From NCBI GenBank assembly GCA_947479475.1, contig CANJZW010000001.1:79313-143312 (forward strand): a stretch of 64,000 nt of DNA. The letters run 5' to 3'. Made by a program: the position numbers and the translations under genes. This document shows positions 39,968 through 62,939 of this stretch, piece by piece. The notes beneath the pieces were generated by a model. It was given only the letters and a program-made list of their open reading frames with translations, had not been told where the DNA came from and ran no database searches. How positions within the stretch are numbered: the first letter of the stretch is position 1; every line of letters begins with the position of its first letter. The stretch comes from Chthoniobacteraceae bacterium (GTDB lineage Bacteria; Verrucomicrobiota; Verrucomicrobiia; Chthoniobacterales; Chthoniobacteraceae).

Positions 39968-41299
39968 TCAGGGCTGGTATTTTGGAAAAATGGCCGGGGT
40001 CGGAAAACGGTCTTCGTAGCTAGAGTTTCCATCCCCGAGAAACTCTTCGCGGGGCAGGTTCACCGCGGTCCAGCTCGCAGGACGAACACGTACGACTCTG
40101 CCAGCCCGGATGCCTTCGATGATGAGGTCAGTTTCAAAACGAATCTGGATGCCGCTGCTACCCAGAGGTGCCTCGCCGGGCAATTTTGCGACCTCTAGGA
40201 TGGGACCTTTTGAGGCCATGTGTGCGGGGCCGTAATGTCCGCCTGCGTGTTTCAGTGTGTTCTCGGCCGCGTTCATCAGGACGGGCACATCCTTTTTGAA
40301 ATCGGCGTAAAGAGAGGCGTCCATGCTGCCGAACAGGGTCGCGGTTACCGTGGCGCGGCCGAACTTGCCATATTCAACGGCATCGATCCAGGCGGGTATC
40401 CAACGGCGGCGAATGAAGGCATTGTGCGTTTCGGTCTGGTTGTCGGAGGAGCGTTGCATCGATGCATCGTCGAGCCAGATATCCGAGATGTGAAACCGGG
40501 TAAAGATACCATCTGGAGTTGGCTTCCAGACGATACCGAGCAGGACGGCCCGGCCGTCAAGGGCCTTCTTTCCTTCAGCGGGCCATGCGCCTTCGGCGAC
40601 CAGGTCCTTGATGCCAAGGCATTCCCGGCCGCGCCAGACGCGGGTGGCGGCATCGAAGGTCATTTTTTCATCGGAGGCCTTGCTGTCGGTGCATTGCTTC
40701 GGTTCGCAGTTGGCGATGAGTATTCCTTCGTAGTTCTTCAGGTCTACTTCCCTGAGTTTCCAGATCTTGCCTTCTTGCAGGCAGTGACTGGGCTCGTCTT
40801 CGAGCAGGAGGACATGGTTCTCAGCAGGGAAGACGCCTATTCCTCGGTAGTGGTTTGAGTCGATGTCCTTGTTATTTACGGGCAGGACCGGCACCGAGGA
40901 AGTCTTCGGGTCTGGTGGTAGGAATGCGCGGATATGCAGCACGGTGCCGAGTGGGATGTCACGCAAATCTGCTGTCGCACCATGATATCGGACAACGCCG
41001 TACGGGAGCATGGCGAAGGGGTGCGGGTTGTTTCGATAGAACATGCCCACCCCTTGCACCCGGATGCTGCCTCGGCGGGTGGCGTGGTCTACAAACACGA
41101 GTTCACCCCGGTAGGAGTGGGCTTTTTCCAAAGACGGAAACTTTCCGGTTTCGGGGCGAAAAACCTCAGCTTGTGGTTCTTTGGTCTTCGGCTCTTCGCT
41201 GGCTGCCTCTGCTTCAATGAGCAAAGCACAGGCAAGGGTCGACAACCACAAGCGAGGAGCCATGAGCAAAAAACCGGGAACAAAAGAGAAGCGTGTCAT
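39968..41299 (-). CDS. unnamed ~420-aa exported family, copy 1 (subfamily A)
   Basis: No known domain recognised. After a signal peptide (LWLSTLACALLIEAEA) come the family blocks: [54 protein letters not shown] then [86 protein letters not shown] then EGIRAGRVVRVRPASW. It is closest to copy 3 (both end [13 protein letters not shown]). ATGs at 41299 and 41263 are both possible; longer upstream readings overlap copy 2. It lies 25 nt after copy 2 and is followed by an LRR relic. Confidence 0.85.
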   Translation of the reverse strand: MTRFSFVPGFLLMAPRLWLSTLACALLIEAEAASEEPKTKEPQAEVFRPETGKFPSLEKAHSYRGELVFVDHATRRGSIRVQGVGMFYRNNPHPFAMLPYGVVRYHGATADLRDIPLGTVLHIRAFLPPDPKTSSVPVLPVNNKDIDSNHYRGIGVFPAENHVLLLEDEPSHCLQEGKIWKLREVDLKNYEGILIANCEPKQCTDSKASDEKMTFDAATRVWRGRECLGIKDLVAEGAWPAEGKKALDGRAVLLGIVWKPTPDGIFTRFHISDIWLDDASMQRSSDNQTETHNAFIRRRWIPAWIDAVEYGKFGRATVTATLFGSMDASLYADFKKDVPVLMNAAENTLKHAGGHYGPAHMASKGPILEVAKLPGEAPLGSSGIQIRFETDLIIEGIRAGRVVRVRPASWTAVNLPREEFLGDGNSSYEDRFPTPAIFPKYQP

Positions 41300-41324
41300 A
41301 GGATGAGACGAAGCGTGGTAAAAA

Positions 41325-42587
41325 TCAGAAATTGGGGAAGATCGCGGGAGTCGGGAAGCGTTGGTCAATGCTGAAGCCCGCACCGTCTGAGACGTATTCT
41401 TCTCTGGGCATGTGCACATCAGGCCATGATGTGGGACGGACACGCACGACACGTGCGGGGCGGAGTCCTTCGGTTATGAGGTCGGTCTCGAATTGGATCT
41501 GAATGCCGCTGCTCCCCAGAGAAGCGTTTCCAAGCGTTTTGGTCACGTCGCGGATGGTGCCTCGTGCGGCCATCTGCGTCGGTCCAGCGGTGCCGCCTTC
41601 CGTATGCTTCAACGTGTTCTCGACGCCATTCATCATCGCGGGGATCCCTGTTTTGAAATCGGCGTAAAGCGACGGGTCCATGCCACCGAACAAGGTGGCA
41701 GTGACCTTTGCGCGGCCGAACTTGGCGTACTCGACGGTATCAATCCACGCGGGCATCCAACGGCTTCGGATGAACGCCTTGTGGCTCTCGGTCTGATGGC
41801 GCGTCGCGTTTTGCATGGCTTCGTCGTCCAGCCAAATGTCCGAGATGTGAAACCGGGTAAACACATTGCCTGGAGTGGGCTTCCAGGTGATGCCTAGCAG
41901 GACAGACTGGCCGCTGAGAGATTTCTTCCCGCTGGCGGGCCACGCGCCCTCGGCGATCAGGTGTTCGATCTGGAGGTATTCGCGGCCGCGCCACACGCGG
42001 GTAGCGCCATCGAAAGACATCGTTTCCTCGCGGGCCTTAAGCTCTCCGCCTTGCTTTGGTTCACGGTTGGCGACAATGGTTCCTTCGTTGTCTTTAACTT
42101 CCACTTCTTTGAGTCTCCAGACCATTCCCTCGCGCTGGCAGGCGCTGGGTTCGTCTTCGAGGAGGAGGACGTGGTTTTCGGCAGGTGCGGTGCCGGGTCC
42201 CCCAGCGTCGGCCTTTTGGCGGTTGTTGATTGGCAATACTGGAACGGCGGAGGTTTTGGGGTCGGGCGGGAGGAAAGCCCGGACTTGCAGCACAGTCCCG
42301 AGCGGAATGTCGCGCAGATCGGCCGGTGCGCCGTGATAACGCACGACGGCGTAGGGCAGCATGGCGAAGGGGCGAGGGGCGCTGAAGCGGAACACTCCCG
42401 TGGATTGCACGCGAATACTGCCGCGCCGGTTGACGTGGTCTACAAACACGAGTTCACCACGGTAGGAATGCGCTTTTTCCAGAGGGGGGAACTTCCCTGC
42501 TTCGGGACGAAAAACATCCTCCTCGGCAGATACTGCGGACAGACCCAAAGCCAAGAACAGAGAACCAAGAACAAGCCGCCGACTCAC
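41325..42587 (-). CDS. unnamed ~420-aa exported family, copy 2 (subfamily A)
   Basis: The 420-aa protein has a signal peptide ([17 protein letters not shown]) and all the family blocks: [71 protein letters not shown] and [14 protein letters not shown]. It differs from copies 1 and 3 in the C-terminus ([21 protein letters not shown]). Its ATG overlaps the stop of the DUF1552 gene by 4 nt (ATGA), so the two are translationally coupled. That is the best hint that this family works with DUF1552 proteins. Confidence 0.88.
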
Positions 42588-43958: not shown

Positions 43959-44014
43959 GGGGTTCTTGGTAAGAGGTTCTTGGTTCTTGGTTGAAGAGGT
44001 TCTTGGTTGAAGAG
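43959..44014 (-). repeat. heptamer-type leader array a (before DUF1552 copy 1)
   Basis: In mRNA sense it reads as AAGAACC units, including two copies of a 16-bp unit (TCTTCAACCAAGAACC), and ends 1 nt before the DUF1552 ATG. It is A/C-rich and has no Shine-Dalgarno sequence. There is no inverted partner on its own 5' side because the four-helix-bundle gene lies there. Confidence 0.85.
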
Positions 44015-44016
44015 GT

Positions 44017-44391
44017 TCAGCGGGAAATGGGGGTATTCAGGAGATAGCGGATGAATCCGCCAACTTTGGAGTGGGTGAGCGCGGTTTGGTTATAGATGGC
44101 ATCAAACTCCTCACGGGTGACGTAGCATTGGTCCAAGGCTACGTAGAGCTGGCTCTGAATTTCTGAGCATGAACGCTGCGAATAGCGCAAGAACTTGATG
44201 AACTCCGGATTGCTCCCGCCGTCGAATCCCGCGGCGATGTTGTGCATCACCGAGCCGGCTGCGCGGGTAATTTGGTCCCGCAGTCCGAAATCCTTCGCAA
44301 ACGTGCCGCGCCGGGCCGAGGCATAGACAAGCTTGGTCAGCTCCCTAGCGAGCTGCCAGCCTTCAATGTCCTCAAAGCGTCGGATGATCAT
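44017..44391 (-). CDS. four-helix-bundle protein (23S rRNA IVP/S23 family)
   Basis: The 124-aa, all-helical cytoplasmic protein has the family pattern [38 protein letters not shown] and [20 protein letters not shown]. Relatives are encoded in 23S rRNA intervening sequences, in diversity-generating retroelements (Avd) and scattered in genomes; their role is mostly unknown. Here there is no rRNA, reverse transcriptase or template repeat. It is the only non-exported protein in this block and sits between two heptamer arrays, at a place where the paralogous locus at 50.2 kb has only an array. Confidence 0.92.
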
Positions 44392-44395
44392 GATT

Positions 44396-44531
44396 TTTTT
44401 CTTAGTTTCCGGTTCCTAGTTCCTGGTTCTTTGTTGTTGGTTCTTTGTTGGGAACGACTGTTTTCTGCTCAGGAAAAAACAAAGAACAAAGAACAAAGAA
44501 CTATGAACGAAGAACTATGAACGAAGAACAT
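44396..44531 (-). repeat. heptamer array b with inverted arms
   Basis: In mRNA sense a U-rich arm (GTTCTTTGTTCTTTG and related units, about 44474-44530) is followed by a core containing GCAGAAAACAGTC and then an A/C-rich arm (AAAGAACCAACAACAAAGAA and related, about 44402-44450), which ends close to the four-helix-bundle ATG. The arms can pair over about 45 nt with mismatches. The U-arm starts 4 nt past the DUF1592 stop. Confidence 0.85.
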
Positions 44532-44535
44532 TTTA

Positions 44536-46992
44536 TCATCGTTTGCGCATGAGGTCGGATTGGGCGACGGCGCGGATGATGTCTTTGATCCGGTATTGGT
44601 TTTTCTTCGCTTCCATCTCGATGGCCTTAAGGTCGTCTTGGTCATCAAAAGCGAGGGCGCGGCGGAGGCCATAAGTGCAGAGGTGCTCTATGAAGGCACG
44701 TGCGATCTTCTCTCGGTCCTCAAGCAATCGCTGTTTGAACTCGTTGGCATCTTTGAATGCGCGTCCGTCTGGCATGATGCCGGCGGGATTAATCAATGGG
44801 TCCTCACCAACGCCTGCAGGAATTTTCTCGCGGGTGCGCCACTGGCCGATGGCATCGTAGTTGTCCCAAGCAATGCCCAAAGGGTCGATCTTGGCGTGGC
44901 AGGCGGCGCAGTTGGCATCTTTGCGGTGAGCCTCCAGTTTCTCGCGGAGGGAGGCTTTTGGGCTTTGTTGTGTACTCGGCTCGATTGCGGGCACGTTCGC
45001 CGGCGGTGGCGGCGGCAGCTTACCGAGAATCACATCGCTAAGCCAGACGCCTCGGTGCACGGGGCGGTGACGTGTGCCGTCCGAAGTCAGTCCGAGCATC
45101 GCACCCATCGTGAGGAGGCCGCCGCGGTGATCTTCGGGCTTGAGGGAGACGCGCTGGAAGCCACTGATCTTCGGTTCGGGAAGTCCGTAGAAATCGCAGA
45201 GCCGTGCGTTGGCTATGCTCCAGTTCGATTCGATGAAGCTGTCGATGGGCATATTTTTGGCGTACATCTCGCGGAAAAACTCCACCGGTTCGGTACGCAT
45301 GCTGGCTTCAAGCCAGGCGTCGTAATTGGGATAGAGCTTCTTGTCCGGCGGGAACATCCCTACGCGGTGGAGTTGCAGCCACTGGCGGGCAAAGTCGTCG
45401 ATGAATCGGTTGGCCCGGCTGTCGGAGAGCATTCGGTCCACTTCCTGATTGAGGCCGTCGCTTTTGAGCGTGCCGTTTTTGGTCGCTGTGAAGAGAGAGT
45501 CGTCGGGCATTGAACTCCAGAGGAAATAGGAGAGCCGCGAGGCGAATTCCGAATCCGTGAGGCGTTCACGAGTTACCGGGTCGCCCTCTACGAGGTAAAT
45601 GAAGTGCCGGGAGGTCAGGACGCCCTGCATTGCCACACGATAGGCGTCTGCACTCTTTTCTCCCGTCTCGCGTTCGCTGTAATAGGAGCGCATATACTTC
45701 TCCAGCTCCTCCTTTTTTACGGGCCGGCGCCAGGCGCGTTCAGCAAAGCGCTGCAGATGTTCTACGACAACTTCTGGAGTTGCGTCATCGGGCGGCAACA
45801 AACCCTCGCGGCGGTTCTTTTCGGCCTCAGATACGAGCGGGCCCTCCCATTCAATCCAATCGAGCAGCACCGTAGAGAAGAGGCCGTTTCCCTTATCATC
45901 GAACATCTGCGGTGCGTTCGGATTGAGCAGCAGGGTCTCGCTGCTGTGCGTAAAGATGTAACCGCCCCTGCTTCCGAGGGCATTGCGAAAGGCGGCTCCG
46001 CTTCTTCTGTCTACCACATCCGTGGCCACCACGCAGCAGTCCAGCGTCGCGGGCATTTCAACGAATACCTCGAACTCAAACACCTGCGGACTGTTCTCGG
46101 GCGCGGTGAGGTCAAACTCGATAATGCCTTCCACTGTCTCTTCGCCGGTCCGCTTGCCGATGCTTAAGTGCGCTGGCTGGCCGCCAGGTGGGCGGATCCC
46201 ACTTGCCTGGATGCGGACTTTGTAGAGCCCGCTATGCTCCGGTCCTGTCTTGCCGAACCAATTAGGAGAGAGCGCATTCTGGGTCGTGCCAGGGAACATG
46301 AGATAACGTAGAGGCCGCTTGATGCCGAAACGGTCCAGAGCCGCCTGCTGGTCCTTTCCTCCTCCGTAACGCAGATCGGCGGCCGTCTTGCGGACTTTGC
46401 GCGCCTCGCTCGATACAACCGGAAAGGCGCGGTCGAGCACGAGTTCTGCCGCGCGGTAATAGCGCTCCATGTGCGACGGCGAAAGGGAAAGTTCCGAACC
46501 GATGCGCTCAAATCCATGCCACAGCGTGTCCGCGTTTAGCTCCCCCGGCTTGGCAGGATCGTAGCGAACGCCGAGCAGGTCATAGACCGTGTTCTGATAC
46601 TCTTTCCGGCTCAGTCTATAATGAGTCACTGCAGGACGCGCCGCCATCCGTGAGGCTCGGCCCTGCTTGAGAAGTGAGTCGAGATTCGTAACAAAAGCCG
46701 CGATCTCCTCCTGGGTCGGTTTTTTTTCCTTCTTCGGAGGCATCTCGCCACTGTTGACGTTTTCGAGTGCCTCCGCCCAATGATGGCTGTCCACGCCCAA
46801 CTTAAAATCGCGCGAGAGATGGTCGAGGCGCAAGTCGCCCTTCTCCTTCTCAGGGCCGTGGCAGCGAATGCAATGCTTCTCTAGGAAGGCTTCAAACGGT
46901 TCCGCTCCAATGACGACACCAGACAAAGGAAGGCTGGCAGTGAAGATCAGCGCCAGGACGAAGAATGAGTGAAAGCGAACGGGGGAAGTCAT
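44536..46992 (-). CDS. DUF1592-type planctomycete cytochrome, copy 1
   Basis: The 818-aa exported protein (from ATG 46992; a TTG 15 nt upstream is less likely) has a signal peptide, an N-terminal haem site C41-x2-C44-H45 ([14 protein letters not shown]), a DUF1587 block ([18 protein letters not shown]), a carbohydrate-binding-like beta domain in the middle, a DUF1592 block ([20 protein letters not shown]), a DUF1588 block with a second haem site C695-x2-C698-H699, and a DUF1585 block at the C-terminus ([18 protein letters not shown]). It is probably a periplasmic dihaem redox protein; substrate unknown. A conserved hairpin lies about 50 nt before the start. Confidence 0.93.
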
Positions 46993-47061
46993 GGTGGGAT
47001 ACAACAAATACCCAATTGTGCCATCTTTATTTGTATGTAGCTACCCCCGAAAACTCGGGGG
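46993..47061 (-). promoter_or_regulatory. conserved leader with CCCCCGA-TCGGGGG hairpin, DUF1592 copy 1
   Basis: A 7-bp perfect stem with a 4-nt AAAC/GTTT loop (47044-47061) touches the palindrome GTAGCTAC (47037-47044), and conserved sequence runs to the DUF1592 ATG. The same layout occurs before DUF1592 copy 2. No T-run follows, so it is not a simple terminator; an operator or mRNA structure is more likely. Confidence 0.55.
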
Positions 47062-48572: not shown

Positions 48573-48579
48573 GGCTTCG

Positions 48580-48682
48580 CGTTCTTGGTTCTTGGTTCTT
48601 GGTTCTTGGTTTCGGATTGCCGGCGTCTTGCTGGGCGACGAAAAACCCAGCACGAAAAACTTGGGACCAAAAACTTAGAACG
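48580..48682 (-). repeat. heptamer array c with inverted arms (before LRR copy 1)
   Basis: In mRNA sense a degenerate U-rich arm (about 48645-48682) is followed by a GC-rich spacer and then four near-perfect CCAAGAA units (48580-48613), ending 8 nt before the LRR ATG. The imperfect arms could form a hairpin covering the leader. Confidence 0.8.
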
Positions 48683-48690
48683 CTAAGGCA

Positions 48691-49986
48691 TTAATATTTC
48701 GGGAAGATCGCCGGTGTGGGAAAGCGGTCTTCATGGCTGAAGTTGCCGTCACCAAGGAACTCCTCCCGAGGCACTCTGACGTTGGGCCAGTCTGCAGGAC
48801 GGACACGGACGACTCGTGTGGGGCGGATACCCTCAATGATGAGGTCCGTTTCAAAATGGATTTGGATCCCGCTGCTGCCCATAGGTTCTTCGCCGTCCAG
48901 TTTCGTGACGTCGAGGATCGAGCCTTTTGAGGCCATGTGCGCGGGTCCATAACCACCGCCCGCGTGCTTCAAGGTATTCTCGGCCGCATTCATCAGCGCA
49001 GGAACACCCTTCTTAAAATCCGCGATGATGGAGGCATCCACGTCGCCAAACAAGGTCGCGGTCACGGTCGCGCGGCCGAACTTGCCATACTCGACGGCAT
49101 CGACCCAGGCGGGTAGCCAGCGGCTCCGGATGAGGGCTTTGTGTACCTCGGCCTGATTTTTGGCGGCGCGTTGTTTAGCGGTATCGTCCAGCCAAATATC
49201 CGAGATGTGGAACTGAACCCACGCCTTTTCCGTGGTGGGCTGCCAGGTGAGTCCGAGCAGGACGGCCTGGCCATCGAGGGATTTTTTTCCTGTGGCTGGC
49301 CAAATGCCCTCGGCGATCAGGTCCTCTATCCCGAGGCATTCGCGGCCGCGCCAGATGCGGGTGGCTGCATCGAAGGTCATTGTCTCGTCGGTCGCCTTGC
49401 CTTCGCCGCCTTCCTTCAATTCGCGGCTGGCAATAATTTTTCCCTGGTTATTTTGGAGGTCCACTTCTTTGAGTTTCCAGACCTTGCCTTCGCGCTGGCA
49501 GTGGCTGGGCTCGTCCTCGAGGAGGAGAACGTGGTTCTCGGCGGGTGCCGTGCCGAGGGGACGAAAGCCGGCTGTGTTTTCCTTGTTGTTGACCGGCAAC
49601 ACTGGAACGGAGGAGGTGTTAGGGTCAGGCGGAAGAAAGGCGCGGATGTGCAGCATGGTTCCGAGCGGGATGTCCCGCAGATCCGCCGGTGAGCCGTGAT
49701 AATGCACGATGCCGTAGGGGAGCATTGCAAAGGGTCGCGGGTCGCCTCGGAATAAATCGTTTGCCCCCTGCACGCGGATGCTGCCGCGGCGGTTGGCATG
49801 ATCGACAAACACGAGTTCGCCCCGGTACGAGTGAGCCTTTTCCAAAGGAGGGAACTTCCCCGCTTCGGGGCGGAATGGCTCCTCTGCAGCGATTGCAGCG
49901 TTTGGGAGCAGCAAGAAGCCTAGGCACAACGCCACGAGACAGCGGCGCAAGGGAGTGGTGGCGTGATTGATTCTTGGAGGGATCAT
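48691..49986 (-). CDS. unnamed ~420-aa exported family, copy 3 (subfamily A)
   Basis: The 431-aa protein has a signal peptide (CLVALCLGFLLLPNAAIA) and all the subfamily A blocks: [123 protein letters not shown] and EGIRPTRVVRVRPADW. Very close to copy 1, pointing to a recent duplication. Just upstream is the DUF1552 relic, so this copy has lost its coupled DUF1552 partner; only about 80 nt separate them. Confidence 0.88.
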   Translation of the reverse strand: MIPPRINHATTPLRRCLVALCLGFLLLPNAAIAAEEPFRPEAGKFPPLEKAHSYRGELVFVDHANRRGSIRVQGANDLFRGDPRPFAMLPYGIVHYHGSPADLRDIPLGTMLHIRAFLPPDPNTSSVPVLPVNNKENTAGFRPLGTAPAENHVLLLEDEPSHCQREGKVWKLKEVDLQNNQGKIIASRELKEGGEGKATDETMTFDAATRIWRGRECLGIEDLIAEGIWPATGKKSLDGQAVLLGLTWQPTTEKAWVQFHISDIWLDDTAKQRAAKNQAEVHKALIRSRWLPAWVDAVEYGKFGRATVTATLFGDVDASIIADFKKGVPALMNAAENTLKHAGGGYGPAHMASKGSILDVTKLDGEEPMGSSGIQIHFETDLIIEGIRPTRVVRVRPADWPNVRVPREEFLGDGNFSHEDRFPTPAIFPKY

Positions 49987-50067: not shown

Positions 50068-50235
50068 CTACATCACTCCAACACTCCATTTTTTCCTTCG
50101 GGAAATTGTGATCACCTCCCCTATGCCGCCCATGCTGAAGGTGGCAAAGCGGGTGACATCCGTCTGGAAGGCGAGCGCCATGAGATCATGGAGAGTGCGG
50201 AAATAATCCTCCGCCATGGTGGAGGCAATGCGCAT
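50068..50235 (-). pseudogene. 55-codon DUF1552 relic with its own start codon
   Basis: An ATG immediately after heptamer array d opens a short frame reading [20 protein letters not shown] then [17 protein letters not shown], matching DUF1552 copy 1 ([19 protein letters not shown] then [11 protein letters not shown]). After the GG the similarity stops and the frame closes at 50068. It is an internal fragment with both ends of the gene lost, yet it starts where a full gene should start after the leader. It may be a fossil or a translated micropeptide. Confidence 0.8.
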
Positions 50236-50308
50236 GGTTCATGGTTGTTGGTTGTTGGTTGGGTTCAGAATGATTGTTTTCTGCACCGGGAACCAAGAAC
50301 AAGGAACA
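50231..50308 (-). repeat. heptamer array d with inverted arms (before the DUF1552 relic)
   Basis: In mRNA sense the U-rich arm GTTCCTTGTTCTTGGTTCCC is followed by a core with GCAGAAAACAATC and then the A/C arm CCAACCAACAACCAACAACC, ending at the relic ATG. The core matches that of array b, and both begin right after a DUF1592 stop, so the two are duplicates of one element. Confidence 0.85.
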
Positions 50309-50313
50309 TATCA

Positions 50314-52954: not shown

Positions 52955-53956
52955 CTACTTGAACTGCAAGGAAGTCTTCGGTAGCAGCGCTTTAATCTTA
53001 ACCTGCACTTCTTCGCTAAACGGCTCTTTGAAAGGCACGAGGCGCATCGACTTAAGGAAGGCGAAATCTTTGAGCACGGAAAGTCTCTCGTCGGGGAAAG
53101 GAACCCTCCCGAGTTCGACATGCTCCAGTTGGGCGAGGCTGGCGATTGTTTTAAGTTCGGCATCGGTCAGCTTTGTGGCGTTCGTCAGGGTGAGGCGGCG
53201 CAGCGAGGCGATTCCTTTGATCAATGGGATGCATTCCGCTGACTCAAAACCCTCGCCGAGTTGCAATGACTCCAGCGGGAGCTTAGCAAGGTGAACCAAG
53301 GCCTGCGGATTGGCCTTCGGTGTGCCGAGTTCAAGGCTCTTGAGCTTGGTGAGCTTCGCGAGGTTTGGTGCGCCGGCATCGCTGAACTTAGCGTGGGCAA
53401 GGCTGATGCTTTCGAGGTTGGGTAGGTGATCGCAGAGTTCCTTGAGGCCCTCGTCGTTGATGCTGCTGCCGCGATGGCTGACGCGGGTGACCTTGGTCCA
53501 GCCCGAGCATTTGGCGTAGGCGATGCCGGTGATCCCAGTGCCGACGAACGAAAAGCTTTCGAGGTTTTTAAGTCCGGCGAAGATTTCCATGCCCGCATCG
53601 GTGAGTTTACCGTTATTGGTGAAACGGAGCGTTTTGAGGTTTGTGAGATTGCTGAGAGGCGTGAGCCATTCGTCATTAGCCTTTGTGGCGATCACGTTGA
53701 GCGACTCGAGTGTGGTGATGTGGCCAATGTGCTCGAAGAAGGCGGCGTCATAGGGATCGTCCTTGCGATGGTCGTGGGGACCCGCGCCCGGTACGGCGAG
53801 ATCGACGAGCTTGAGGCTCTGTCCGTCCTCTGTCTTTTCGATTTTGCCCTTCGCGCCTTCAACGGTGCGGATGACTGCTTCGACATGCGGGTCGAGGGCG
53901 AAGGCGAGGTTCGTCGCGAACGCTAGGGTCAGGAATGTGATGGTGGGGAGTTTCAT
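52955..53956 (-). CDS. exported leucine-rich-repeat-like protein, copy 2
   Basis: The 333-aa protein has a signal peptide (ITFLTLAFATNLAFALDP), the segment HVEAVIRTVEGAKGKIEKTE, then about eight leucine-rich units such as LTNLKTLRFTNNGKLTDAGM, LKNLESFSFVGTG, LPNLESISLAHAKFSDAG and LAQLEHVELG, and ends VQVKIKALLPKTSLQFK. It is shorter than copy 1 by several repeats. It precedes DUF1592 copy 2 by about 150 nt, which fits the repeated unit LRR-DUF1592-DUF1552-family. A long heptamer leader touches its start. Confidence 0.88.
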   Translation of the reverse strand: MKLPTITFLTLAFATNLAFALDPHVEAVIRTVEGAKGKIEKTEDGQSLKLVDLAVPGAGPHDHRKDDPYDAAFFEHIGHITTLESLNVIATKANDEWLTPLSNLTNLKTLRFTNNGKLTDAGMEIFAGLKNLESFSFVGTGITGIAYAKCSGWTKVTRVSHRGSSINDEGLKELCDHLPNLESISLAHAKFSDAGAPNLAKLTKLKSLELGTPKANPQALVHLAKLPLESLQLGEGFESAECIPLIKGIASLRRLTLTNATKLTDAELKTIASLAQLEHVELGRVPFPDERLSVLKDFAFLKSMRLVPFKEPFSEEVQVKIKALLPKTSLQFK

Positions 53957-53957
53957 G

Positions 53958-54010
53958 GTTCTTAGTTGTTGGTTGTTGGTTGTTGGTTGTTGGTTGTTGG
54001 TTGTTGGTTA
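53958..54010 (-). repeat. heptamer array e (before LRR copy 2)
   Basis: About seven tandem CCAACAA units in mRNA sense, the most regular array in the window, ending with CTAAGAACC against the LRR ATG. It has no inverted partner; instead it abuts the 10-bp array on its 5' side. Confidence 0.9.
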
Positions 54011-54104
54011 TTCGGGGCTATTCGGGGCTATTCGGGGCTATTCGGGGCTATTCGGGGCTATTCGGGGCTATTCGGGGCTATTCGGGGCTATTCGGGGCTA
54101 TTCG
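54011..54104. repeat. 10-bp tandem array starting at the stop codon of family copy 4
   Basis: Nine perfect copies of TTCGGGGCTA (TAGCCCCGAA in mRNA sense) and a partial tenth. The first TAG is the stop codon of family copy 4. Family copy 5 has TAGCCCCGCGTAGCG at its stop, so the repeat probably grew from a conserved post-stop sequence. Units of 10 bp put stop codons in every frame on the sense strand. Confidence 0.95.
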
Positions 54105-55348
54105 CGGCCCTCGAATCGTTCTTCTTGCGGAAGGGAGTTGACTGTCCAGGTGGCTGGGTAGAAACGGACGATACGCCCCGGGCGGTAGCCTTCGAGCATC
54201 ATCCCGCATTTGACTCTGATCTGAACGCCGCTGCACCCGGGGACCACCGGCACTTTGCCAAAGTCCACGATGTTTCCGCCTTTACGATCGTTGACGGGGT
54301 CGTAGGTCATGAGGGTAGGAAGCGCCACGGCTATACCACCTTTAGGAGCCTTTGGATCATCCTCCGGCACGGAGAACGGCCACCCAAGAGGCTTTTCATC
54401 GATGCCCTTGAGTTCGTCAAAGAGTTTGGGATCCACTCCATCGAAGAACGTGATCGTGACGTGCTGTGTGGCGTCATCCACAGCGCTCACAAAGCCCGGC
54501 AGACCGCGCTCGCGAATGTGGTTTCGGTGGCATTCGAGTTGATGCGCGGTGGCGACTGCACGGCTCGCCTCATCCAGTAAGATCTCTTTGAGGCGGCCCG
54601 GACCGTAGAGCGTGGCCCACGTGAGGTTGAAAAGGACAGTCTGGCCGGGGCGCAATGCTTTCAGGTCCGCGATGCGGTCGTTTTGGAACACGCGTGTGCG
54701 GGTGAGGAGGTCGAAAGTTTTCGCCTTGCCGTCCCCGGCGGCTTTGCTGTTCTCGAAGAGCACGGCATGAAGCTTCATCGCGGTGAGATCGACGCTCTCG
54801 ATTTTCCAGTGCTGCTTCTGCCGTGCGTGGAAGGTGAAATCGTCCTCCAAGCGTAGGCAGCGCCGGAATTCCCATTCGTCCGTTTTGCGTTTGTTCGAGG
54901 TGTCAGGCAGCGGAGTCTTGTCGTTCGGATCTCTCTGGTAAAACAATCCATGCAGGTGGGTGCCGAGCGGGACGTCCTGCAAGGCGGCCGGTGCACCGTG
55001 ATACCAGACCGAACCGAAAGGTAGCAGGCCCGATTCGAGAGGTAGATCGTGAAAACCCGCCTGCTGGCTGTCATTGCGATCCACACGAATTTGGAACCGC
55101 CGCTCGAGATGATCCACCTGGATGAGTTCGCCGGAGACTGCGTGTGCCGACCCCTCCGGGGGAAACTGACCTTCGACGATCTGATACCAGTCCGGTTTGT
55201 CACCGGGCTTTCGGTCCTTCGGGTTGACTCGCTTCTCGCTTGCCTTCACCGGTCCATCGGCGTCGGTGCGGAACATGGCTTTGTCTTCGGCGTGGAGAAG
55301 TGCCGTCAGGCACCGGAGGGCGAGGAGCGACGTGAGGATCAGGCGCAT
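54098..55348 (-). CDS. unnamed ~420-aa exported family, copy 4 (subfamily B)
   Basis: The 416-aa protein has a signal peptide (ILTSLLALRCLTALLHAED) and a subfamily B N-terminus (PDWYQIVEGQFPPEGSAHAV), then blocks homologous to subfamily A: SGELIQVDHLERRFQIRVDR, LPFGSVWYHGAPAALQD, VPLGTHLHGLFY, TRVFQNDRIADLKALRPGQT then VLFNLTWATLYGPGR, RGLPGFVSAVDDATQHVTIT, GCSGVQIRVKCGMMLEGY and RPGRIVRFYPATW. It ends ERFEGRE at a TAG that is the first unit of the 10-bp array. Function unknown. Confidence 0.87.
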   Translation of the reverse strand: MRLILTSLLALRCLTALLHAEDKAMFRTDADGPVKASEKRVNPKDRKPGDKPDWYQIVEGQFPPEGSAHAVSGELIQVDHLERRFQIRVDRNDSQQAGFHDLPLESGLLPFGSVWYHGAPAALQDVPLGTHLHGLFYQRDPNDKTPLPDTSNKRKTDEWEFRRCLRLEDDFTFHARQKQHWKIESVDLTAMKLHAVLFENSKAAGDGKAKTFDLLTRTRVFQNDRIADLKALRPGQTVLFNLTWATLYGPGRLKEILLDEASRAVATAHQLECHRNHIRERGLPGFVSAVDDATQHVTITFFDGVDPKLFDELKGIDEKPLGWPFSVPEDDPKAPKGGIAVALPTLMTYDPVNDRKGGNIVDFGKVPVVPGCSGVQIRVKCGMMLEGYRPGRIVRFYPATWTVNSLPQEERFEGRE

Positions 55349-55403: not shown

Positions 55404-56480
55404 TCAGCGGGCGACGATGTCAGAGATGTTCTTGTCGCAAGGGATGGAAGCTACTTTATCGAGGGAGCCATCCTTGCCGACCTTGTACGCGGTAATGCTC
55501 GCTCCGTTGAACGCGGTCACGAAGAGGAATTCCCCTTTCGGCGAGAGCGTGAAACCCCACGGGATCTTGTCTGCAGGCGTGCGACCGATTAGGGAGATGT
55601 TTCCGTTCTCGTCGATCCGGTATCGGGTGATCCAATCGAAGTCTCGTTGGTGTCCGCGGATCCCCGCGAACAGGAAGCGTCCGTCCGGGGTGATGACGAT
55701 ATCGGAGGAGGAGATACCCTCTTTGGGTTCGTGAGCTGTCACGGCGTCGCAGACATTCCTGAACTTCAAGCGGCCTTCGCTATCGCGGTCGTAAACGGAG
55801 ACGCCGAGGTTTTGCTCGTTGCTGAAGTAAACCACGGGAAGTGCGGGGTGGTAGACCATGTGGCGCGGCCCCGTGCCGGCAGGAGGGAGGACATTCGCGG
55901 GTTCCATCGGCTCGAGGCTGCCAGTCTTCGCATCGAAGCGGTATTGGAGGATGGCGTTGTTCCCCTTCACGTAGGGGATGTAGATGTTGCGGTTGTCGGG
56001 CGAGGCAAGGATGCAGTGGGCTTCCTTTCGTCCTTCGTCGCGGCCCGCGACCCATCCGGTTGGGGCGCCGTTGTCGCCAAGACCGTAAACATCCACCGCG
56101 CCGCTGCCGTAATCCGCGCTCAGCAGGAAGCGGCTTGACGGATCCGTGCTGAGATAGGCTGTGCCATGTTTCAGTTTGAAGCTCTGTTGGCTGGCGACGC
56201 CTCCGGAGGCGTCGAGGGAGACGGTCGCAGCCGGGACGCTGTCGACCGCTCCGCCGCCTGCCCCGACATAGAGGATCGGCTTGGAGGAATGCAGGGTGAT
56301 GGTTCTGGCCGGGAAGCCAAGGTCCACTTTGGACTCCACGGCGAGCTCGATGCCGGTCGGGGACGGTTTCGCTGCGATGACCCAGAGCTGTTTGCTTTCC
56401 GAGCTGGGAGCGTAAACGTGGAATGGCGGCTCGCCATTCACGACGGCGGTGAAGGCCAGCAGGGTGGCGAGGAGTTTCAT
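55404..56480 (-). CDS. exported lactonase-family seven-bladed propeller
   Basis: The 358-aa protein has a signal peptide (LLATLLAFTAVVNG) and resembles the 6-phosphogluconolactonase (Pgl/YbhE)-like lactonase family: repeated STDPSSRFLLSADYGSGAVD, ILASPDNRNIYIPYVKGN, GTGPRHMVYHPALPVVYFSN, ITPDGRFLFAGIRGHQRDFD and LSPKGEFLFVTAFNGASITA. Export makes a pentose-phosphate role unlikely; it could open a lactone formed by oxidation of a sugar by the redox proteins around it. It is flanked by heptamer leaders, between copy 4 and the 1653-aa protein. Confidence 0.85.
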   Translation of the reverse strand: MKLLATLLAFTAVVNGEPPFHVYAPSSESKQLWVIAAKPSPTGIELAVESKVDLGFPARTITLHSSKPILYVGAGGGAVDSVPAATVSLDASGGVASQQSFKLKHGTAYLSTDPSSRFLLSADYGSGAVDVYGLGDNGAPTGWVAGRDEGRKEAHCILASPDNRNIYIPYVKGNNAILQYRFDAKTGSLEPMEPANVLPPAGTGPRHMVYHPALPVVYFSNEQNLGVSVYDRDSEGRLKFRNVCDAVTAHEPKEGISSSDIVITPDGRFLFAGIRGHQRDFDWITRYRIDENGNISLIGRTPADKIPWGFTLSPKGEFLFVTAFNGASITAYKVGKDGSLDKVASIPCDKNISDIVAR

Positions 56481-56507
56481 GTTTCTGGTTCTTGGTTCTT
56501 GGTTATT
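56481..56507 (-). repeat. heptamer leader g (before the lactonase-like gene)
   Basis: AACCAAGAACCAAGAACC in mRNA sense ends a few nt before the ATG. It overlaps the last codons of the 1653-aa protein gene (stop at 56503), so there is almost no other intergenic DNA. Confidence 0.75.
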
Positions 56508-59500
56508 TTACATCCACCTCGCCCCACATGTTCGGTGTCAGCATGATTTCGCCGGGGATGTCGTCCACGAGGCCGGTGCTTTGGTTTGACCAATAGGAGC
56601 GCAGGTTGGTGTCGGTGCCGGCGGCGTCGCCGAAGGTCACGCCGAAGTCGGCATGGAGTTTTTGGCCGGGGGAAAAGGTGAGGCCGAGATCGGCGAGTGG
56701 AACGTCGGCGGTGAGGGTGTAGCCGTTGGCTTCAGTCTTCACGGTGATCTTGGCTTCGGAGATCTGACGGACGTCGTCCACCTTGGCCCCGCGCCAGGGG
56801 CTGGTGAACTCAATGGGGTTCTTGCCGCCGGGTTTGCGATGTTCGTAGAGCACGGCGATGGACTTGCCTTCGTGCGGGGCGAAAAGAAGGCGCTTATCGC
56901 CGATGACGGGCTCGCGGCGTTTGGGATCGGCTTTGGGATCGCAGGCGAATTGGAAATCCACGGTGTCGCCGGTGGCGAAGAGATTGGTCCAGTCGCGGCC
57001 GTTGTTCACCCAGGGCGAGGCGTCCTGCACTTTCCAGCTCAGATGCAGGAGCGTGGCGTCGGCGCTGAGATCGACCTGCGCTTTGAACTTGCCGCTTTTG
57101 TCCCAAGTGATTGTGCCCGGGAGGGTGGCCTCACGGGAGGGCTGCTTCGCGGCGGCGGCTCGCAGGCTTTGACGCTCGGCGGTGGCAATCTGGGCGGAGG
57201 TGACTTCCAGTTTGCCGCTCTGGCGTTTCAAGGTGCCGAAACCTTCGAGTTCATAGATGCGATACGGTCCGTGGCCGATCTGCACGAGGTAACGGCCCGT
57301 TTTTGCATCGCGACCGAAGCTGCCGCCGAAGATTTCGCCGCCGAGGCGATACTCATTTTTTAAATAGCTGACGCGCACATCCACGAAGGCTTCATCGAGA
57401 TAGAAGCCATCCGTGCTCAGCAGGAAGCATCGGCCGTGATTGCCGTTCAGGAAGACGACGTCGGATGTGTCGTCGAGCGGGGCGATGCCGAGAAAGGCCA
57501 TCGAGCCTTGCATCACGCCGGGCTCGGGCAGTGGGGCGTCGTGCGAGCCATGCACGTCGCTCCATTGGTTGGGGAAGCGCCAGAGATGGCGGCCATCGGC
57601 GGCGTAGGCGTTCATTTCGGGATCGGAGTTAAAAAGGAAACGTCCGGCGCGATCCTGCACCGTCGCGACACCACTGCGCTTGTTGCCTGGCGTGAGATTC
57701 ACCGGCGTGGCGGCGGCGATGGCTGCATCGAGCGTCGGATAATCGGGCACGCCGTTGGCCAGCATCCCCTTCGGCTTGATGGCGGCGACTTTGACCTGCG
57801 TCTTGTCGGCCACGGGCATGTAGAAGGTGAGCGAGTGCTGCATGTGACCCCATGCACTATCGCCGTAGGCGATTTGATCACCGCAGAAGTCGAACTCATC
57901 CTGTTGCGCTTCGCCATCGCCATTGCGGTCCACCCATAGCACGCCCATGCCGCGCTTCGACCACGGCTTGGAATCGCCTTTTTGGCCGAGCTTTTCGTTA
58001 GCGCGTTTTTCCGGCCACTTGGCGTAAAAAGCTCCAACATAGGCCTGCGGTGGCTGCCAGTTAAAGGCATACGCAAAGTGATGCGTGCCTGCCGTGGCGG
58101 CGATGTCCTTCACGGTGCCATCGGGCAACACTTCGCTGATGAGCGCGATCTTCCCGCGCGTGGCGACAAAGGTGCGTCCGCCCTCACGGAACCACCCATA
58201 GCTGTGAGGCTGATAGTGGCCGAGATGGCCTTCATCCCGGCTGATCACATGCGTGGGCCGCGCGGTTTTCTTCTCGATGTCCACGTCCCAGAAACATCCC
58301 AGCCCGATCCAGCGGCGCGGGTTCTCCGGGTCAAAACCGCTGCCATCGCCGCCGTAGTGCGGCATGCCGAACTTCTCGATCACGACCTCGTTCTTGCCGA
58401 GATCCCAGGCAAGAACGCGCTTCGGGTTCCAGCGATTTTCCGTCACCCACAATTTGCCATCCGGCCCGAAGGTAAGCCCAGTGGGATTCACCATGCGCTG
58501 CGGATCATACGCTCCGCGATACGGGCCGCCAGCTTTGCCTATCACGGACAGTGCTTTGCCATCGGCTGAAAAACGACGCACCTGATGCGCCGCTGCATCG
58601 CTGATGAGGATGTCGCCATTTTGGGCGAAGGTCAGGCCGCTGATGTCTCCGTGCTTGATGAGCAGCTTTTGGTCGTGCACCCGCACTACGCCGGTATCCG
58701 TGGCGGCAAACAGCTCTTTCCCGGCGCTGAGATGCCGCACGCCTGCAAGCGGGATTTTGTCAAGCGCCTTACCGGAAGCCGCGTCGAGCACGAACACGCA
58801 CTTCTTATCCCGCGAGCCGACATAGAGCCGCCCGTTCATCACGGCGATGCCTCCGAGGTTGAACTGTTTCAAATCAGACTGCGCGTTCACCTCCATCGTG
58901 TCCACCGGCAGGCCGCGCACCTTCCCGGGCCATTCGACAAGCTTCCCGGTGCTGATTTCATAACGGCAAATGGTGACCGTCCACGTCGCTTTCCAATCCG
59001 GCTTGGTGATGTCCGGCCGACCCCCCCAGGTGAAACCATCCTGCGCGCAGTAAAGATAATGTGAGTCCGCGGCGATGGCGTCGTGCTGGATGCCGAAGCC
59101 GTGCTGATGCTCGTAGCCTTGCACTAACTTGCCGTCGTTGTTCAATGCCAGCAGCGCCCAACCGCCCTCCGTGACCGGCGCGGCAAAAAACACGTGCTCC
59201 CCGTTTGTAGCTGCGGCGTGCAGCGTGCTGTGATTTGGCCCCCAGGACTCCGTCGTCGGCTCATCGCCGTTCACGAAGTTCATAAGATAGTGCGGGCGGA
59301 TGCCTTCATGGGTCACAGCGCGCCAGGCATAATTACCCGGTTTCACGAGTTTTCCGTCCTCATCGAGTCCATCCCAGATCACATCATGCTTCCCCGCCGT
59401 GAAGGCGCGGCCCGAAACGAGATTACGCACCCGCTCGCCTTTCTCGTTTTCGATGACGACGCTTGCCTTACCTTCCTGCGGTTGCGCGAAGCTCAAGTGA

Positions 59501-62788: not shown

Positions 62789-62939
62789 TTTGTTTTTGGT
62801 TCGTAGTTCGTAGTTCTTTGTTCTTTGTTCTTTGTTCTTTGTTCTTTGTTACATGGGCGTAGCGCTTCGTTCTTGGCGCGGGAGATCACATCCCCCCCAA
62901 GAACCAAGAACCAAGAACTACGAACCAAGATCTACGAAT
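62789..62939 (-). repeat. heptamer array i with inverted arms (before family copy 5)
   Basis: In mRNA sense the U-rich arm (TTCTTGGTTCTTGGTTCTTG with flanking TTCGTAG units, 62898-62939) begins 2 nt after the DUF1552 stop. A spacer of about 45 nt follows, then five AACAAAG units and two AACTACG units (62790-62850) up to the family copy 5 start. The GTAGTTC/GAACTAC parts match between the arms, so this is the best-defined hairpin of the set. Confidence 0.9.

Follow-up and report, generated by a model that had tools for sequence, protein, structure and literature searches.

Four-helix-bundle genes between inverted heptamer arrays: a probable mobile element akin to rRNA intervening sequences

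Introduction

PF05635 proteins are annotated as 'four helix bundle protein' in many genomes, but to our knowledge their role is known only in a few rRNA intervening sequences (IVSs), and we know of no catalytic site in the family. ORF-bearing rRNA IVSs have been described as selfish elements, and RNase III cuts rRNA IVSs out (PMC4990558). The resemblance of Avd to PF05635 has also been noted (PMC10053308). The 23S rRNA IVSs of Leptospira, Coxiella and Azospirillum share the S23p/PF05635 protein family with the locus described here, and they place their ORF between terminal inverted repeats that form a stem.

Heptanucleotide repeats occur in Calothrix and Nostoc. TAACTGA of Beggiatoaceae (PMC4679880) and GGGAATC of Xanthomonas (PMC4692102) are further examples, and in all of these, as at our locus, the repeats are tandem 7-mers in spacers with a patchy distribution across phyla. 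The Xanthomonas study describes heptameric repeats as over-represented in bacterial spacers and unexplained (PMC4692102), and the TAACTGA study reports no transmission mechanism and raises an unknown repeat-binding protein as a possible mobile element (PMC4679880). In the searched passages of these reports, no four-helix-bundle (4HB) gene is named (PMC4679880, PMC4692102). A literature search, with most subscription journals outside it, returned no publication linking heptamer repeats to PF05635, and we regard the novelty of such a link as provisional.

Here we analyse a 4HB gene in a 64,000-nt stretch of a Chthoniobacteraceae genome (contig CANJZW010000001.1, positions 79,313 to 143,312; hereafter the window) together with its relatives. 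We conclude that the gene and its adjoining heptamer arrays probably constitute one mobile, selfish, IVS-like element that resides in gene spacers, with arms predicted to pair into a stem enclosing the ORF.

Results

The first-pass annotation of the window had placed a 4HB gene amid heptamer arrays, and profile matches confirmed a PF05635/TIGR02436 gene between arrays of GTTCTTG type in a DUF1592/DUF1552 spacer. In the direction of transcription, the locus reads as follows:

44536 to 47007, minus strand: DUF1592-1 gene, upstream neighbour
44474 to 44530, minus strand: heptamer array on the upstream side of element b, about 8 copies of GTTCTTN type on the coding strand, in opposite orientation to both NAAGAAC arrays
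44451 to 44473, minus strand: core of b, CCTGAGCAGAAAACAGTCGTTCCC on the coding strand, reversed in orientation in species G001
44399 to 44450, minus strand: inner heptamer array of b, of NAAGAAC type on the coding strand, in the same direction as array a
44017 to 44391, minus strand: 4HB gene (PF05635/TIGR02436), 124 aa, from profile matches and an AlphaFold2 model
43961 to 44018, minus strand: outer heptamer array a on the downstream side, of AACCAAG type on the coding strand, stopping just short of the DUF1552-1 start codon
42584 to 43957, minus strand: DUF1552-1 gene, downstream neighbour

These parts are arranged on the coding strand as U(GTTCTTN)n–core–D(NAAGAAC)n–4HB–D(NAAGAAC)n. Element b has two 51-nt arms, inverted and complementary at 78%, with its core between them, and the gene itself is flanked by array a and the inner array of b as a direct repeat. 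Array a, previously taken for a mere further array, is indeed present but belongs to a U-core-D-4HB-D layout common to related species and a second genus. This U-core-D-ORF-D order, with its predicted stem, is comparable to that of the 23S rRNA IVSs. Unlike those IVSs, the window copy lies in the DUF1592/DUF1552 spacer and not in 23S rRNA, most of its relatives likewise occupy protein-gene spacers, and the stem is made of short tandem heptamers particular to each protein lineage.

The window also contains arrays without an ORF:

50225 to 50311, minus strand: solo (ORF-less) element d, behind DUF1592-2, sharing its core with b
62789 to 62939, minus strand: solo inverted pair of heptamer arrays (62789 to 62862 and 62895 to 62939), between two genes
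48573 to 48625, plus strand: single heptamer array, GTTCTTG, 4.4 copies
53949 to 54022, plus strand: single heptamer array, TGGTTGT, 7.7 copies, adjoining a 10-mer array
56473 to 56515, plus strand: single heptamer array

Comparison of the cores of b and d (coding strand CCTGAGCAGAAAACAGTCGTTC and CCGGTGCAGAAAACAATCATTC, respectively) bears out the earlier view that the two elements are homologous there. A genus-wide search with the b/d core GAMNGANTGTTTTCTGC, allowing 2 mismatches, returned hardly more matches than the reversed pattern used as control; the core is therefore no recognisable genome-wide motif. MITE and REP-RAYT are non-autonomous systems in which ORF-less copies share their ends with ORF-bearing ones. 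ORF-less copies with the same ends likewise occur alongside ORF-bearing ones here (window 50225–50311 and locus L213, below); unlike in those systems, tandem heptamer arrays make up the ends, and the fold of the protein is not that of a transposase.

Several other features accompany the block. The 10-mer TATTCGGGGC, in ten near-perfect copies at window 54009–54108, abuts the TGGTTGT repeats at 53956–54009. Four similar exported proteins of about 420–490 aa are interleaved with the DUF1592/DUF1552 genes (window 39968–42587, 48691–49986 and 54098–55348); the only one tested, at 41325–42587, gave no Pfam match. The second and last PF05635 gene of the genome (L001/L070, G000:C119:6343-6756) also lies between DUF1592 and DUF1552 genes, so that both of the two occupy this type of spacer, and it is followed by a 14-copy 8-mer array (ATCTCCCC/TCTCCCTG).

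The window protein scored 95.2 bits against PF05635 (curated cut-off 33.8) and 89 bits against TIGR02436 (cut-off 24). AlphaFold2 models its monomer as a four-helix bundle (pLDDT 95), matched best in the PDB by XCC0516 (2gsc, TM 0.86); 2rld and Avd are also among the nearest folds. It is the only ORF within the element, which encodes no transposase or recombinase, and both its solitude and its nearest folds set the element apart from a conventional transposon or IS.

Between co-directional neighbours, 4HB genes were oriented 44 times in sense (++) and twice in antisense (--), as called with a crude ORF caller, so the gene is probably read from host transcripts; the bias may reflect survival rather than insertion. 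For locus L130, the predicted RNA folds into an arm stem of about 30 bp around the ORF (z -3.5), and the predicted RNA of the window element likewise folds more stably than its shuffles (z -3.5), with an inner hairpin before the ORF.

An RNA that folds in this way could be copied by a reverse transcriptase (RT), for which the 4HB protein would serve as cofactor in the manner of Avd, and then inserted. Such a retroelement would agree with the sense-strand bias and with the resemblance of the window protein model to DGR Avd (4dwl) and to the DGR RT ribonucleoprotein (8ub7), and one relative, the L131 protein, matches both the Avd model NF033474 (31 bits) and phrog_3206 Avd. RNA-level excision, moreover, is established for rRNA IVSs (PMC4990558). 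Unlike DGR Avd, however, the window protein had no match to NF033474, and its element has no adjoining RT, template repeat or variable repeat; nor was an RT gene found beside any of the elements inspected. In the window genome, the single RVT_1 match is on contig C212 and the 4HB gene on C1. Several near-complete draft MAGs (G020, G023, G026, G028, G029 and G033), from which a gene can be missing, had no RVT_1 match despite 5–7 PF05635 matches each. The RVT_1 counts thus disfavour the RT route, which we consider unlikely.

To characterize the flanks of 4HB genes, we fetched 60 PF05635 places from species of the family, keeping 52 non-redundant loci, and added 80 loci from about 20 phyla and from ANME-1/Methanophagales archaea, these being the best matches of one database-wide scan and not a random sample. 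Periodicity was scored over 24 nt at 75%, with controls treated identically; because the arrays have 4–5 degenerate copies, most of them escaped a stricter setting of 28 nt at 82%. Short tandem repeats border most family loci; their period is usually 7, and the unit differs from locus to locus. Lag-7 self-similarity was found in 46–48% of flanks at the 52 family loci, compared with 1.5% of random and 10% of non-coding segments, and lags other than 7 and its multiples gave 0–10%; at the 80 cross-phylum loci, the values were 61% and 59% of flanks versus 2.8%. Homologues of the window gene are therefore mostly associated with such repeats, whereas dissociation from them would have spoken against the earlier reading.

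The two flanking arrays are mutually inverted. Inverted arms exceeded the 95% cross-locus null at 40 of 51 family loci (2.6 expected), compared with 5 in direct orientation, and at 64 of 80 cross-phylum loci (4 expected), 45 of which also exceeded the 99% null. Overall, the upstream array recurs as its reverse complement downstream in 78–80% of loci, and about 20% of 4HB genes have no clear inverted arms. Of 500 control ORFs from the same loci, 1.4% had inverted flanks; heptamer arrays lay on both sides of 37–47% of 4HB genes and of 1.3% of 520 control ORFs. Array copy number had a median of 4.6 at 4HB loci and was about 4.7 in solo arrays. Telomere-like ends, with the same repeat at both 3′ ends, were dropped as a candidate arrangement because the G-rich strand is here at the 5′ ends.

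The same array–4HB–array layout was present at nine annotated plasmid loci, mostly cyanobacterial, some of them within gene clusters; the occupied sites include the gaps of the cas6/cas4, cas10/cmr3 and ribonucleotide reductase gene pairs. In Azospirillum (L128), the 4HB gene lies within the 23S (LSU) rRNA gene between heptamer-like arms, indicating that the classic IVS has the same architecture. The cas6/cas4 and cas10/cmr3 copies (L122 and L126, respectively) lie within CRISPR–Cas operons, and '23S rRNA IVP' appears in a figure legend on CRISPR-linked domains (PMC10910872); such CRISPR links may reflect insertion of 4HB elements.

The repeat unit follows the protein. For locus pairs with non-homologous flanking genes only, mean heptamer distance fell from 3.19 for proteins with no detectable similarity to 2.76 at 50–60% identity, 1.91 at 60–75% and 0.45 above 75%, and none of 2,000 permutations gave an association as strong. 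GAGTGAC-type heptamers, for example, accompany proteins of 64–76% identity in Acidobacteriota and Verrucomicrobiota. The period also tracks the protein: on the protein tree, periods of 6, 7 and 8 required 10 changes, compared with 16.6 after shuffling (0 of 200 as low), with the five period-6 proteins forming one clade and the period-8 proteins clustering. A 4HB subclade with 6-mer arrays is spread over several genera of the family (L077, L080, L081, L083, L087 and L098).

Three spacers of Nostocales plasmids occur both filled and empty. Site 1 is filled in L124 and L221, empty in L211 and L212, and solo in L213 (Nostoc ATCC 53789 pNsp_c), where positions 1321–1582 hold related GGGAAC-type arms without an ORF, possibly a non-autonomous derivative. 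Site 2 reads CAGGTTCTA-AATCAGGAGTCAGAAG...4HB...CTTCTGGATTCTAG-TTATGC when filled (L130 and L220) and CAGGTTCTAGGTTATGC when empty (L216). Site 3 is filled in L127 and empty in L217, where the genes are 3 nt apart. At the junctions, site 2 has a repeated TTCTA, which is also similar to a degenerate heptamer, and filled and empty versions of the three sites are several to 10% diverged. Since the empty sites have no arrays, the arrays belong to the element. Sequence comparison thus indicates that arrays and 4HB gene come and go together, and that the arrays are probably the cassette's own ends and not its target. These comparisons strongly support the suggestion of a mobile cassette of leader plus ORF that is linked to the repeats, but insertion into a pre-existing heptamer element is not, given related empty sites without arrays and a heptamer particular to each 4HB lineage.

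These observations also bear on whether the arrays are ordinary slippage repeats that gather in spacers, where 4HB genes merely insert or survive. Arrays of this origin would be in keeping with the published excess of heptameric repeats in spacers, with solo arrays that have no 4HB gene and with the lag-7 stretches in about 10% of non-coding controls. Against such an origin stand arms that are mutually inverted and specific to a locus, heptamers that track protein identity at unrelated sites, periods that track protein clade, and related empty sites free of any array. Because heptamer and period track the protein, slippage alone is insufficient and a repeat-reading protein would suffice; we regard the slippage explanation as highly improbable.

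Within the genus of the window species, PF05635 genes were present in 4 of 12 species, all four of which have one copy, with arrays, at the DUF1592/DUF1552 spacer. The spacer is short and free of arrays in G005, G011, G010, G007 and G002, has a possible array remnant in G008 and keeps the hairpin without the ORF (solo) in G009. The gene is absent from G005 and G011, sisters of the window species (G000), G001 and G004, and from G002, sister of G003, so that its presence changes at least three times on the DUF1552-1 tree. A species of another genus (G015) has a copy at the equivalent spacer. The G003 gene resembles this copy (86% nt) more than it resembles the G000 gene (78% nt). The GTTCTTN triplet arrays follow the same distribution, with 20, 10, 15 and 1 (G004) matches in the species with a 4HB gene and 0–1 in the others, except for 7 in G009, which has the solo element. 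In G001, the core between the inverted arrays is flipped relative to G000 and G004 (L003 1380–1405 versus L005 1385–1425), as would be expected from flipping between inverted arrays.

The gene had been read as an insert at the repeat. This copy did not arrive recently: orthologues occupy the spacer in four species and also in a second genus, and the divergence between the G000 and G003 genes (78% nt, 83% aa) is about equal to that of the neighbouring gene (84% aa). The gene is nevertheless not a fixture of the spacer in all relatives, as its presence is patchy among close ones. Orthologous copies combined with patchy presence require repeated loss or repeated gain, which indicates frequent loss or gain at a site that is either old or used again and again. 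The least probable reading is that the 4HB protein is a resident, inherited and immobile regulator that controls the operon by binding the repeats of its own leader and trailer, since the orthologous copies and the sense-strand bias that would suit it are set against at least three changes in presence, empty sites in close relatives, the same protein and heptamer at unrelated loci in different phyla, and a copy inside 23S rRNA.

Discussion

We propose that the mobile, IVS-like element consists of a heptamer array, a 4HB ORF and a reverse-complement heptamer array, akin to the ORF-bearing 23S rRNA IVSs; the window locus would be one case of a widespread and largely overlooked type. The gene would be read from host transcripts, in which the arms would fold into a stem around the ORF, and RNase III could then excise the element from the host message, as it does rRNA IVSs. 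Mobilization may rely on host replication, recombination or repair functions, because no catalytic site is known for the protein family and RVT_1 was not detected in several genomes rich in these elements. Solo hairpins such as that at window 50225–50311 could arise by loss of the ORF, for instance through recombination between the two flanking direct arrays.

The crystal relative 2gsc is a homopentamer (PMC4990558). A pentameric 4HB ring may bind the heptamer arrays (about 4–5 copies), which would explain why the protein lineage matches the sequence and period of the repeat. Since the relative is pentameric and the median array has 4.6 copies, each subunit could perhaps bind one heptamer; this match in number is only suggestive, as solo arrays have a similar copy number.

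More tentatively, although we take the prospect seriously, these loci could represent a class of mobile elements spread across bacteria and some archaea that has no transposase or RT of its own and whose ends, tandem arrays of 6-, 7- or 8-mers, are selected and perhaps maintained by the ring-shaped protein they encode. The 23S rRNA IVSs would then be special cases of this class, and many orphan heptamer repeats its remains.

Exact TAACTGA arrays were not found beside 4HB genes among the fetched loci; we put forward the connection of 4HB elements with the Calothrix/Nostoc, TAACTGA and GGGAATC repeats as a proposal. It leads to three predictions: each 4HB protein binds its own heptamer, empty sites have no arrays and the period tracks the protein lineage. 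Furthermore, 4HB genes and short repeats near CRISPR loci, such as L122 and L126, may be insertions and not parts of those systems. Reports of heptamer repeats in Cyanobacteria, Xanthomonas, Beggiatoaceae and Bacteroidetes name no agent; the 4HB link offers a candidate for it, and 4HB elements are probably one origin of the unexplained 7-letter repeats in bacterial genomes.
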